64,000 nt of DNA from Candidatus Oscillochloris fontis (GTDB lineage Bacteria > Chloroflexota > Chloroflexia > Chloroflexales > Chloroflexaceae), in NCBI RefSeq assembly GCF_004138135.1, contig NZ_RYFD01000022.1:1-64000 (forward strand), in the 5' to 3' direction. Position numbers and translations under genes: made by a program. This document shows positions 22,101-26,000 of the stretch, one piece after another; position 1 is the first letter of the stretch; every line of letters starts with the position of its first letter. The notes beneath the pieces were generated by a model. It did not search any database, had not been told where the DNA came from, and saw only the letters and a list, made by a program, of their open reading frames with translations.

Positions 22101-22151
22101 GATCTATTGTTGTTGTTTGGCGGCGAAGCCGCCAAACAACAACAATAGATC
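22101..22151. terminator. Palindrome copy P7, after the carboxyltransferase gene
   Basis: Perfect inverted repeat with arms of 24 bp (GATCTATTGTTGTTGTTTGG plus CGGC) and a GAA loop, beginning 2 nt after the stop. A second imperfect hairpin (TCGGGGTCGGC/GCCGCTCCGA) follows. It separates the carboxylase gene from the corrinoid locus. Confidence 0.75.
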
Positions 22152-22247: not shown

Positions 22248-22901
22248 ATGAGCAGCGACCAGAGCTTCTCCCCACAGGCGACTGACGAATTCCTGCAAGC
22301 CCTGCTCGCCAGTGATCGCTTCGCTGTTCGTAGAATTATCACCCGCTTCGCCGATCTGAGCGGCCCCTTCTCGGTCATTGAGCAGATGATCGTACCCAGT
22401 CTCGAAGAGATCGGCCATGCATGGGATAGCGGCGAGATCTCACTCGCCCAGGTCTATATGAGTGGGCGTATCTGTGAGGAGATGGTTGATACCCTCTTGC
22501 CTCCCGCGAGTAACCAGCGCATTAACCAACCCCCGATAGCGATTGCCGTCCTTGACGATTATCACATGTTGGGGAAGCGTATGATCGCCTCAGCACTACG
22601 GGCGAGTGGCTACGAGATCCACGACTATGGTCGAGTTGATGTGGATCGCTTGATCAAACATGTGATCAACGATAAGATCGCCATCTTGCTGATTTCGGTG
22701 CTCATGTTACCCTCAGCGCTGGAGGTTATCCAGATCCGTCAACGCCTAGATCGGGTCGGGCTGCGCCCGCAGATCATCGTCGGTGGGGCACCCTTCCGTT
22801 TTGATGCACAACTGTGGCAAGAGGTTGGTGCTGATGCCATGGGCCGTTCGGCGATTGATGCTGTGACCATCGTAGCCAAGCTGCTGGAGGATCTCTCATG
22901 A
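22248..22901 (+). CDS. Corrinoid (B12-binding) protein, methyltransferase-carrier type
   Basis: 217-aa protein made of a helical cap (residues 10-90) and a Rossmann B12-binding domain (about 95-217), the layout of MtaC/MtbC-type methyl carriers. The B12 signature D-x-H-x-x-G is present in LDDYHMLGK with His106 as the lower cobalt ligand. It is followed by the expected S-x-L (ISVLML) and GG (IIVGGAPF) elements. The start is ATG 22248. It is followed with a 4-nt ATGA overlap by a UroD/MtaA-like protein, so the two are translationally coupled and likely act as a pair. Confidence 0.88.
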   Translation: MSSDQSFSPQATDEFLQALLASDRFAVRRIITRFADLSGPFSVIEQMIVPSLEEIGHAWDSGEISLAQVYMSGRICEEMVDTLLPPASNQRINQPPIAIAVLDDYHMLGKRMIASALRASGYEIHDYGRVDVDRLIKHVINDKIAILLISVLMLPSALEVIQIRQRLDRVGLRPQIIVGGAPFRFDAQLWQEVGADAMGRSAIDAVTIVAKLLEDLS

Positions 22902-23956
22902 GCATGCCAGCAACCAGTTCACTCCAACGGGTTCTGACCACGCTGAGTCACCAAGAGCCAGATCGGGTGCCGCTCTTTCTGCTGTTGACGATGCATGGGG
23001 CTAGGGAGTTGAATCTCTCGATCAAGGAGTATTTCTCCCACGCTGAGCATATGGTTGCGGGGCAGTTGCGTATGGCCGAGAAGTATCGGAATGACTGCTT
23101 CTACGCCTTCTCCTATGCTGCTGTTGAAGTTGAAGCGTGGGGCGGCGAGGTGATCTTCCGCGATGACGGGCCACCCAATGCGGGCGAGCCGTTCATCCGT
23201 AAGGCGGAGCAGATTCTCAGCCTTGAGGTGCCGACTATTACCGACATTCCCGCCTTACGGCGGATGTTGGAGACGATCAGCCAACTGCATGCCCACAACC
23301 AAGGCCAACGCCCGATCATCGCGGTGGTGATGGCCCCCTTCTCATTGCCCGTCATGCAGATGGGCTTCGAGGGCTACCTGGATCTGATGTACGAGCGCCC
23401 CGATCTGCTCCAGCGTCTGCTGGAGATCAATACCGAGTTTTGTGTGGCCTGGGCCAATGCCCAGCTTGCAGCCGGAGCGACGGCGATCTGCTACTTTAAC
23501 CCGTTGGCCTCGACCACGATGGTGACTCCCGCCATGTTCCGGCAGTTTGATGTTCCGTTCTCGCAACAGGTATGCCGCCGAGTCAATGGGCCAATAGCCA
23601 TGCACTTTGCATCCGGGCGCTGCTTGCCGCTCATGGATGATCTCGCCGAGTTGGGGGTTGCAGTGGTTGGGGTGAGTATAGATGAAGATTTGCGCACCCT
23701 CAAACGTGCAGCAAGCGGCAAATTCAGCCTGCTCGGCAATCTGAACGGGATTGCGATGCGCAACTGGAACCCCAGCCAAGCCGAAGCCGAGGTCAAGGCC
23801 GCCATTGCCGCCGCTGGCCCCGGCGGTGGGTTCATCTTATCCGACAATCACGGTGAGATTCCCTTTCAAGTACCCGATGAAACCCTCCTCGCAATCAGTG
23901 CATCTGTCCAGGAATGGGGGGGCTACCCGCTCCAGTGGGCCACACAAGAGCCATGA
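22898..23956 (+). CDS. UroD/MtaA-superfamily protein, zinc cysteines replaced
   Basis: 352-aa TIM-barrel protein of the uroporphyrinogen decarboxylase superfamily, closest in context to corrinoid methyltransferases (MtaA/MtbA/CmuA). It is not HemE: the N-terminal RxMRQAGR signature is missing. In zinc methyltransferases the ligands are H-x-C and a later Cys in a GCG turn. Here the first site reads AMHFASGRC (His236 kept, Ala238 instead of Cys) and the second reads LSDNHGEIP (His318 in the Cys position). The metal site is therefore lost or rebuilt. It overlaps the corrinoid gene by 4 nt, and the next ORF starts inside its 3' end. Confidence 0.85.
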   Translation: MSMPATSSLQRVLTTLSHQEPDRVPLFLLLTMHGARELNLSIKEYFSHAEHMVAGQLRMAEKYRNDCFYAFSYAAVEVEAWGGEVIFRDDGPPNAGEPFIRKAEQILSLEVPTITDIPALRRMLETISQLHAHNQGQRPIIAVVMAPFSLPVMQMGFEGYLDLMYERPDLLQRLLEINTEFCVAWANAQLAAGATAICYFNPLASTTMVTPAMFRQFDVPFSQQVCRRVNGPIAMHFASGRCLPLMDDLAELGVAVVGVSIDEDLRTLKRAASGKFSLLGNLNGIAMRNWNPSQAEAEVKAAIAAAGPGGGFILSDNHGEIPFQVPDETLLAISASVQEWGGYPLQWATQEP

Positions 23957-26000
23957 GATCTTTCTGTATGTCTGCCGCCACTACCACACCGAGGTCGCTC
24001 GCGCTCTGAGCGAGTTAGGCTTCACTGAAGTACAAGTCGCAGCATACCACTTCCCATGTAGTCAGCCCTATGGTTCGGTGCAACCCGCCACGCCACCTAT
24101 GATCGCCCCACCCGCAGGGAGTGAGGTGATCTTTTTGGGTGCCTGTTCGGTGCGCCCGCAGGCTGACACGCTACCGGGGCAGGTCATTGCGCTCGATCAC
24201 TGCATCATCATGCTGATCGGGCCAGAGCGCTGGAAGCATGCCACGCGCAGTGGGAGCTACCTGCTTACGCCGGGGTGGCTACACACATGGCGCGAACAGA
24301 TCGAAGCGTGGGGCTTTCAGAAGGAGGTCGCCCGCGAGTTCTTCCAAGAGACGACCAAGGAGTTGGTGCTGCTCGATACGGGGGTTGATCCCGATGCGGC
24401 AACCAACCTAGCCGAATTGGCCGCCTTTGTGGATTGTCCGAGCCGCGTTGAGCCGATTGGGCTGGATTATCTCAAACTCTTTTTGCGCGATCTGGTGCTC
24501 ACACGGCGCATGGAACAGATCGAAACCCAGCAGCGCCACGTCATGAAGGAAGCGAACCGCAAGATTGCCGAATATGCGATGGCGTTCGATCTGTTGATCC
24601 AGCTCTCCTCGATCCAATCCGAAGAGGCGACGATTCACGCCATCCGCGATCTCTTCGCCATGCTCTTCGGCTGCTCCAATCCAACCTACGCCCAAGTGCG
24701 CGGCGGTCAGATGATGCAGTTCTTCCCCAGCCCACCGACGTTTATGGTACGCAGCATCTTTGAGCAACTTCTGGGGAACCCCGCAGATGACTACCGGCTC
24801 ACAGATGAACCAGCGGGCTTCTATCTGCGCATCCAGTACCAGCAAGAGACACTCGGCCTCATTGCGATCAGTAGTATCGCCTTCCCGCACTACCGCGACC
24901 AGTACATCAGCCTCGCATTGGCGATCACCAACCTGTGCGGGCTGGCGCTGGCGAATGCGCGCACCTTCACGATGCTTCAGGAAGCTGAACAGGCGCTACG
25001 CTACGAGCGTGAGATTACCGATCATTTGCGCCAGACCATGAGCGATCTGACCACCGAACTCGACCAGGAGCAGATGTTGCAGAAGGTGATGGAACAGATT
25101 GAACAGCTTATTCCCAGTCAGATCGCCCTGATTCTGCTGCATGAAGGGGTTATGCTACGGGTCGCTTCAGCCCAGAATCTGATCAACGATACCCGCTTGA
25201 TCGGTACGTACTTCGCGGCTAACCAGCAACCGTTTGCGGCAGTGATTCAGCGCCAAAAAGCGATCATCCTGAATCATGACCAACTCGCCTACCTGCCGAC
25301 ACTCGAACCAGCACTCACCCACCATATTCGTACCTGGATGGGGATTCCACTGCTCCAACAAGAAGGCGTGATTGGGTTACTCATTGTTGCGAGTAACCAA
25401 CCTAATGCCTACAATGCCAACCATGTGATGATCGCCCAAGTGCTGGCCCACGAAGTTGTTATTGCACTCCAAAATGTTCATATGTTCCAAGAAATGCACA
25501 TGCTTGCAGGCACCGATCCCCTGACCAAACTCTACAACCGTCGTCGGCTGACCGAGTTGGCCGAAGCGGCCTTCCGCCACGCGCATAACACCAGTGGCCA
25601 CTTTGCCGCGATCTTCATTGATATTGATCATTTTAAGGATGTGAACGACACCTTTGGGCATGCGGTCGGTGATAAGGTGCTTGAACATCTGGCTACCTCG
25701 TTACGCCAAGTACGCAGTTCAGATATCGTGGCTCGCTATGGTGGTGAGGAGTTTGTGATCATCTCCATCGGCCATTCACCACAGCATGTGCGCTTGTTTG
25801 CCGAACGGCTACGCCAGGAAGTGGCCCAGCAGCCGGTAAATTTGCCCGAAGGGCAGATTGCGATCACCATCAGTTTGGGGGTAGCAAGCCTGACACCGCA
25901 GATTGAAAGCCTCACCGAATTGCTTCAGTATGCGGATCAGGCGCTCTACAAGGCCAAAACATCGGGACGCAATCGGGTCTGTGTGTGGGGGGAGCAGTAG
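23877..26000 (+). CDS. DUF1638-GAF-GGDEF diguanylate cyclase
   Basis: Up to 707 aa. Residues about 30-230 resemble DUF1638 (IALDHCIIMLIGPERW, SGSYLLTPGWLHTW, LVLLDTGVD), a domain I associate with corrinoid methyltransferase clusters. A coiled coil, one degenerate and one clear GAF domain (about 270-540) follow, then a GGDEF domain with active-site GGEEF at 622-626 and an intact RxxD inhibitory site (RSSD, 613-616), so an active, product-inhibited cyclase is expected. No start codon occurs at the end of the UroD-like gene. In-frame starts are ATG 23877 or GTG 23898, both inside that gene, so the first 25 or so residues are doubtful. Confidence 0.83.
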   Translation: MKPSSQSVHLSRNGGATRSSGPHKSHEIFLYVCRHYHTEVARALSELGFTEVQVAAYHFPCSQPYGSVQPATPPMIAPPAGSEVIFLGACSVRPQADTLPGQVIALDHCIIMLIGPERWKHATRSGSYLLTPGWLHTWREQIEAWGFQKEVAREFFQETTKELVLLDTGVDPDAATNLAELAAFVDCPSRVEPIGLDYLKLFLRDLVLTRRMEQIETQQRHVMKEANRKIAEYAMAFDLLIQLSSIQSEEATIHAIRDLFAMLFGCSNPTYAQVRGGQMMQFFPSPPTFMVRSIFEQLLGNPADDYRLTDEPAGFYLRIQYQQETLGLIAISSIAFPHYRDQYISLALAITNLCGLALANARTFTMLQEAEQALRYEREITDHLRQTMSDLTTELDQEQMLQKVMEQIEQLIPSQIALILLHEGVMLRVASAQNLINDTRLIGTYFAANQQPFAAVIQRQKAIILNHDQLAYLPTLEPALTHHIRTWMGIPLLQQEGVIGLLIVASNQPNAYNANHVMIAQVLAHEVVIALQNVHMFQEMHMLAGTDPLTKLYNRRRLTELAEAAFRHAHNTSGHFAAIFIDIDHFKDVNDTFGHAVGDKVLEHLATSLRQVRSSDIVARYGGEEFVIISIGHSPQHVRLFAERLRQEVAQQPVNLPEGQIAITISLGVASLTPQIESLTELLQYADQALYKAKTSGRNRVCVWGEQ

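Follow-up and report, generated by a model that had tools for sequence, protein, structure and literature searches.

A recurrent trio of corrinoid carrier, UroD-like protein and DUF1638-GAF signalling protein as a candidate B12-based sensor with interchangeable outputs

In the UroD superfamily, S-methyltransferases have His-Cys-Cys zinc sites and O-methyltransferases replace the Cys (PMC10418091), and B12 photoreceptors are recognized by a GxxW, EH, GxxH and GxxxP signature (PMC11796333). DUF1638 proteins have been described alongside corrinoid systems: the Phaeobacter inhibens DUF1638 gene PGA1_c13340 lies beside a corrinoid protein gene and shares with that gene and a RamA-like gene a requirement for methionine synthesis (PMC5764234); the Ruegeria homologue SPO2162 reaches higher levels on methylated N-osmolytes (PMC12478193). 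Here we describe a locus in which a corrinoid carrier, a UroD/MtaA-like protein and a DUF1638-GAF-GGDEF protein are encoded by three consecutive genes. It lies in a stretch of 64,000 nucleotides from Candidatus Oscillochloris fontis (contig NZ_RYFD01000022.1, positions 1 to 64,000), referred to below as the window. The evidence for our reading is comparative throughout, and by that evidence the trio looks like a widespread, previously undescribed B12-based sensor.

An initial annotation, made from the sequence of the window alone, had treated the three genes as one coupled locus and had set beforehand, as a test, whether the three families co-occur in related genomes. Genes 1 and 2 share a 4-nt overlap (22898-22901), and the three families turned out to be strongly linked as neighbours. 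We scanned 84,980 genomes with a UroD alignment, confirmed 337 relatives and kept the best 80, chosen by similarity to the window's UroD-like protein. The carrier gene was directly upstream of the UroD-like gene in 80 of 80 loci, most often with a 4-nt overlap, and a third gene with the family-specific domain GAF1, DUF1638 or both lay downstream in 75 of the 76 loci that no contig end interrupts. DUF1638 precedes GAF1 in most of these third genes. With the carrier-UroD order repeated in every locus, the arrangement is far beyond chance. The hosts span at least 12 phyla and include Chloroflexota, Pseudomonadota, Thermodesulfobacteriota, Nitrospirota, Myxococcota, Verrucomicrobiota, Bacteroidota, Spirochaetota, Actinomycetota, Bacillota, Riflebacteria and methanogenic archaea. 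The trio's proteins also correlate in their pairwise distances (Mantel r 0.41-0.66, 0 of 2000 permutations), a signal of which shared ancestry alone would produce part. No fusion joining two trio members was present among the 80 loci. The window's locus has a single UroD-like gene; two others (L118:2415-7478 and L119:5971-9214) have tandem copies, with a further UroD-like gene from this subfamily upstream of the carrier-UroD pair.

The same picture emerged among close relatives. A search of 60 of them recovered full-length gene 3 orthologues in eight genomes, and DUF1638 was present in 11 of 61 genomes when the window's own was included. Genes 1 and 2 adjoin gene 3 in the eight orthologue genomes and in three more, with the exception of two copies that look damaged, and none of the window's other tested flanking genes was found near the trio in those 11 family members. 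Because genes 1-3 stay together while the flanking genes differ, the trio appears to travel as a unit. HisKA-HATPase-receiver replaces GGDEF in three of the family members, and two of these three copies are the damaged-looking ones: that at L041:6785-10640 has no carrier gene and carries DUF1638 in another frame, and that at L042:2685-7397 has a UroD gene split over two frames and a carrier on the opposite strand.

We next consider what stands behind the input domains of the third gene. The output was GGDEF in 20 loci and the window, a histidine kinase, with or without a receiver domain, in 33, and a Cys-rich tail (PICSHCKKIR...FSHGIC; seven tails read) in 12 mainly sulfate-reducer loci that lack DUF1638. 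The UroD tree shows at least 10 switches of output type and at least 27 of phylum label, indicating that the module moves between lineages and that its output is exchanged. Signalling domains also dominated the surroundings: receiver domains occurred in 26 of 74 downstream and 16 of 67 upstream genes, HATPase in 20 of 74 and 18 of 67, and HisKA, PAS and GAF were prominent as well. Neither corrinoid methyltransferases nor pterin or RamA families figured among the 25 commonest neighbour families. The GAF1 proteins with the Cys-rich tail (L067:6984-7796, L083:7037-7837 and ten similar loci) follow the pattern LSG.IPIC.HCK.IRDD.GYW...FSHGIC..C and are often near histidine kinases.

Signalling neighbours, swappable outputs and the lack of methyl-transfer partner families all favour sensing over catabolism, as the initial annotation had proposed, and we regard sensing as such as likely. 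With somewhat better than even confidence, we read the trio from its sequences as a three-protein corrinoid-based sensor in which DUF1638-GAF1 reads the state of the carrier and passes it to interchangeable outputs. In this model the three cytoplasmic proteins would form a signal-input module, with the carrier and the UroD-like protein as a joint receptor. A small molecule, probably methylated, would be bound in the UroD barrel and held against the carrier's corrinoid, and DUF1638-GAF1 would sense whether the carrier is methylated, in the Co(II) or Co(I) state, or docked, probably via a conserved four-Cys site. The long helix that ends GAF1 would then carry the signal to the output domain, in relatives often a histidine kinase that would act by phosphotransfer, and in the window a GGDEF cyclase, whose predicted product should be cyclic di-GMP (c-di-GMP). 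The earlier proposal that the DUF1638/GAF part converts corrinoid state into a c-di-GMP signal thus stands as far as an input coupled to a swappable output is concerned; that the methyl state of the corrinoid is what is read we infer, as we do physical contact among the proteins, the class of ligand and the direction of the response. A bolder version, to which we give somewhat less than even weight, is that the trio represents a new receptor class: a methyl-transfer pair freed from catabolism would sense a methyl compound or the cobalt state, DUF1638-GAF would read it, outputs would vary across bacteria and archaea, and a degenerate offshoot would control the reductive dehalogenases of Dehalococcoides-like bacteria.

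The chief alternative is a metabolic methyl-transfer system, such as a demethylase or a piece of an alternative methionine synthase, in which the third protein would be a DUF1638 protein that services the corrinoid and has an incidental regulatory output. The properties of the UroD-like protein bear directly on this idea. The initial annotation had called it a methyltransferase-fold protein; it matches PF01208 (Table 1) and carries H236, A238, H318 and a DNHGEIP motif. It scores 94 bits against the 235-bit cut-off of MtaA/CmuA (TIGR01463) and 65 bits against the 303-bit cut-off of HemE (TIGR01464), and in an alignment with PDB structures the catalytic Asp of HemE (FSDIL motif) falls on Tyr73; a separate 439-bit URO-D protein in the same genome is presumably HemE. 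Among 82 UroD-like proteins, the zinc-site His236 is kept in 81 and the Cys of H-x-C is Ala238 in all. The third zinc-ligand position is His318, as placed by alignment with the LGHGI segment of HemE, the match to 4ay7 having ended before that position. Thus the protein lacks the His-Cys-Cys zinc site of MtaA, MtbA and CmuA, and since S-methyltransferases have that site, a thiol acceptor is unlikely; these residues would allow a ligand with an O- or N-methyl group. DNHGEIP is invariant among the UroD-like proteins, a result that is partly circular because DNHGEI sat in one of two search patterns; Ala238 and His236 did not. A metabolic role would fit the highly conserved active site, the retention of His with replacement of Cys, as in the O-methyltransferases of the superfamily (PMC10418091), and the service that standalone DUF1638 proteins give to corrinoid methyltransferases. 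Against it, the loci are without a second methyltransferase, pterin enzyme or RamA, signalling neighbours predominate, and the outputs found are signalling domains. The absence of a RamA-type activase, first noticed in the window, extends to the whole genome: RamA/RACo was not found in the 99.99% complete assembly, which has a separate 1197-aa, MetH-sized B12 protein. RamA was also missing from 11 of 30 tested host genomes, including several isolates (Thiocapsa and Rhabdochromatium among them). Together with its absence here, this indicates that the module does not need RamA. We therefore consider the metabolic explanation unlikely.

A redox, oxygen or gas sensor would differ from the sensor we favour in that the carrier's cobalt or a metal cluster in DUF1638 would shift state with no methyl chemistry involved, and the UroD-like protein would only hold the carrier. 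This explanation draws on the third protein. Its DUF1638 domain matches PF07796 at 49.9 bits in one search and 52.7 bits in another (gathering score 27) and contains four conserved Cys (Cys33, Cys61, ~Cys90 and Cys109, numbered from ATG 23877), which may bind a metal. The AlphaFold2 (AF2) model of the domain (Table 1) has no clear solved relative in the PDB, where sequence searches likewise gave chance matches only. The best structural hits, racemases at Z 5.6 over half of the domain and the PrpR sensor domain by Foldseek (E 7e-3), were too weak to name a relative, an outcome that is no proof of a new fold. Comparison with the carrier alignment by hhalign (probability 1%) led us to reject a degenerate B12 domain as well. 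Besides the Cys residues, a redox sensor would be consistent with the lack of thiol-activating zinc ligands in the UroD-like protein and with the many hosts from redoxcline or sediment. The complete UroD pocket, however, is strictly conserved across phyla, which suggests a specific ligand over a scaffold role, and we judge a purely redox or gas sensor improbable.

The principal reason for thinking that DUF1638 reads or services the carrier is that it accompanies corrinoid proteins in metabolic and signalling settings alike. In a relative of the same family (G017; L194:1868-4337 and L043:1-2136), genes for MttB, a carrier, a RamA-like protein and standalone DUF1638 are clustered; the L043 protein has Cys, His, Cys, Cys at the four positions, and other standalone DUF1638 proteins look alike. 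In other Chloroflexota, DUF1638 is paired with a carrier or with RACo. In genomes presumed to be Dehalococcoides-like, a DUF1638-PAS-histidine kinase follows a gene of ~206 aa, with a response regulator and a reductive dehalogenase adjoining. By hhalign (E 1.9e-7) the ~206-aa product is a degenerate homologue of the carrier, and the kinases are possibly organohalide sensors. A Desulfamplus genome encodes DUF1638 fused to a Hydantoinase_A-type domain (L189:3782-6880, minus strand; 1033 aa), Desulfotignum genomes contain similar open frames of 945-950 aa with DUF1638, and a role of this fusion as corrinoid reactivase is possible.

The remainder of the third protein agrees with the initial annotation in its domain types and in its GGEEF and RxxD motifs, and differs in having two GAF domains, not one. 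GAF1 (~residues 220-375) has no Pfam match, and its predicted model (pLDDT, the predicted local distance difference test score, 91) adopts the GAF fold (Z 16.6, root-mean-square deviation 2.6, 144 residues aligned). It is the most constant part of the third gene, present in nearly every complete copy; GAF2 is missing from shorter GGDEF relatives. The GGDEF domain has an intact GGEEF at residue 622 and an intact I-site RSSD at residue 613 and passes the PF00990 cut-off, marking it as a predicted diguanylate cyclase. GG[DE]E[FL] is kept in 20 of 20 GGDEF relatives; an apparent loss in Thiocapsa proved to be GGEEL in place of GGEEF.

The carrier has the features of methyltransferase corrinoid carriers. 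Conservation was counted in an alignment of 82 proteins. The D104-x-H106-x-x-G109 motif (DYHMLG from residue 104), already recognized around His106 in the initial annotation, is intact and is kept in all 81 relatives that cover the stretch. The Rossmann domain also has S150-x-L152 and G179G180, the helical cap has G56xxW59 and V69-Y70, and D104, H106, G109, S150, L152 and GG179-180 are kept in nearly all of ~80 proteins. The carrier resembles TIGR02370 and scores 76 bits, under the 215-bit cut-off of that subfamily. PDB profile matches rank MttC (7xcn, 8.5e-24) ahead of photocobilin (8j2y, 1.9e-9). From the photoreceptor signature GxxW is kept (W59), EH is replaced by V/I/L-Tyr almost throughout the family and GxxH retains its Gly (residue 103) in 1 of ~81 proteins, which places the carrier outside the CarH/photocobilin photoreceptors; judged by these residues, it is without their Glu-His photoswitch. 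A B12 photoreceptor, in which adenosyl- or methylcobalamin is photolysed on the carrier and the cyclase answers light like photocobilin-diguanylate cyclase fusions (PMC10979010), would suit the retained G56xxW59 and the phototrophic groups among the hosts (Chloroflexales, Thiocapsa, Rhabdochromatium, Heliophilum), yet it is very unlikely given the lost EH and GxxH residues, the many dark anaerobes that carry the trio, such as sulfate reducers and methanogens, and the closer kinship to methylamine carriers. The suggestion in the initial annotation that light might be the signal is weakened accordingly; light is conceivable in the phototrophic hosts and unlikely as a general signal.

Several observations weigh against the three-protein sensor that we favour. 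RamA is present in 19 of the 30 host genomes, and the UroD active site, more conserved than any other part (median identity 62%), would fit a real enzyme too. About one sixth of third genes lack DUF1638 and keep GAF1 alone, so DUF1638 cannot be indispensable; several of these genomes carry a separate DUF1638. Metal binding by DUF1638 is read from its sequence only, and members more distant than the 80 selected may differ.

The coordinates of the locus are given in Table 1. The sole in-frame standard start upstream of DUF1638 in gene 3 is ATG 23877, which overlaps the UroD gene by 80 nt; third genes in relatives mostly start within ~10-15 nt of the UroD stop. ATG 23953 overlaps that stop, where relatives start, yet is out of frame with gene 3, and 23870-23970 may contain a one-base error of assembly or a genuine frameshift. 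An Rfam scan of the window gave no match to a cobalamin riboswitch or other RNA, and sigma-70 promoter and terminator scans gave signals at chance level only. The inverted repeat lies between a carboxyltransferase gene and the trio, has no T-run and is probably the terminator of the upstream gene, outside the trio system.

Table 1 Features of the trio locus and its upstream flank in window coordinates.
Feature	Position	Strand	Description and basis
Corrinoid carrier gene	22248..22901	+	217 aa; PF02607 cap + PF02310 Rossmann domain
UroD/MtaA-like gene	22898..23956	+	352 aa; PF01208, 200 bits, 9.6e-59
Third gene, DUF1638-GAF1-GAF2-GGDEF	23877..26000	+	707 aa from ATG 23877; start uncertain; PF07796, PF13185, PF00990, orthologues
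DUF1638 input domain	23946..24491	+	Predicted model, pLDDT 92.9; Cys conservation
GAF1, family-specific GAF	24534..25001	+	AF2 model, GAF fold
GAF2	25059..25472	+	PF13185, 1.1e-17
GGDEF diguanylate cyclase domain (predicted)	25509..25976	+	PF00990, 4.5e-44, 150 bits; motif check
Perfect inverted repeat	22101..22151	unassigned	Two 24-nt arms, 3-nt loop; read from sequence

If the sensor reading is correct, non-photolytic B12 chemistry would be in wide use as a signal input among anaerobes, phototrophs, sulfur bacteria and methanogens. For DUF1638, to which no function has been assigned, a role in reading its corrinoid partner proteins would come within reach of testing, as would a plausible type of sensor for the reductive-dehalogenase operons of Dehalococcoides-like bacteria. 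The Thiocapsa, Heliophilum and Desulfonema hosts are named isolates in which the idea can be tested directly.

We found no description of the trio combination in the open-access literature that we searched, which is not proof of absence. Among the nearest known systems, the MtaA/MtbA/CmuA systems and type 1 mlp gene clusters likewise pair a corrinoid carrier with a UroD-superfamily protein and supply the nearest named hidden Markov model families. The trio's carrier and UroD-like protein fall short of all these family cut-offs, the zinc His-Cys-Cys site is not retained, and a signalling gene stands in place of an activase or second methyltransferase. The mec cassette (PMC9768040) also combines a carrier and a CmuA/MtaA protein with a two-component system, and differs in its further methyltransferases and PocR-type kinase. 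CarH and AerR use a B12-binding cap and Rossmann domain in regulation, and the trio carrier keeps their G-x-x-W; in contrast to them, the trio has no DNA-binding domain and no EH motif, and has a UroD-like partner. In the photocobilin-diguanylate cyclase fusion AbDPcob (PDB 8j2y), a B12 domain with His ligation is tied to c-di-GMP synthesis. That protein joins its B12 domain to a globin-like domain and to the cyclase and has EH, whereas the trio keeps carrier, UroD-like protein and cyclase as separate proteins, lacks EH and would use DUF1638-GAF1 as the transducer. Finally, Phaeobacter PGA1_c13340 and Ruegeria SPO2162 share with the trio a DUF1638 that is encoded or co-regulated with a corrinoid system (PMC5764234, PMC12478193). 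The standalone DUF1638 proteins that we examined are ~200-300 aa long with His for one Cys, whereas in the trio DUF1638 forms the N-terminal input part of a signalling enzyme.

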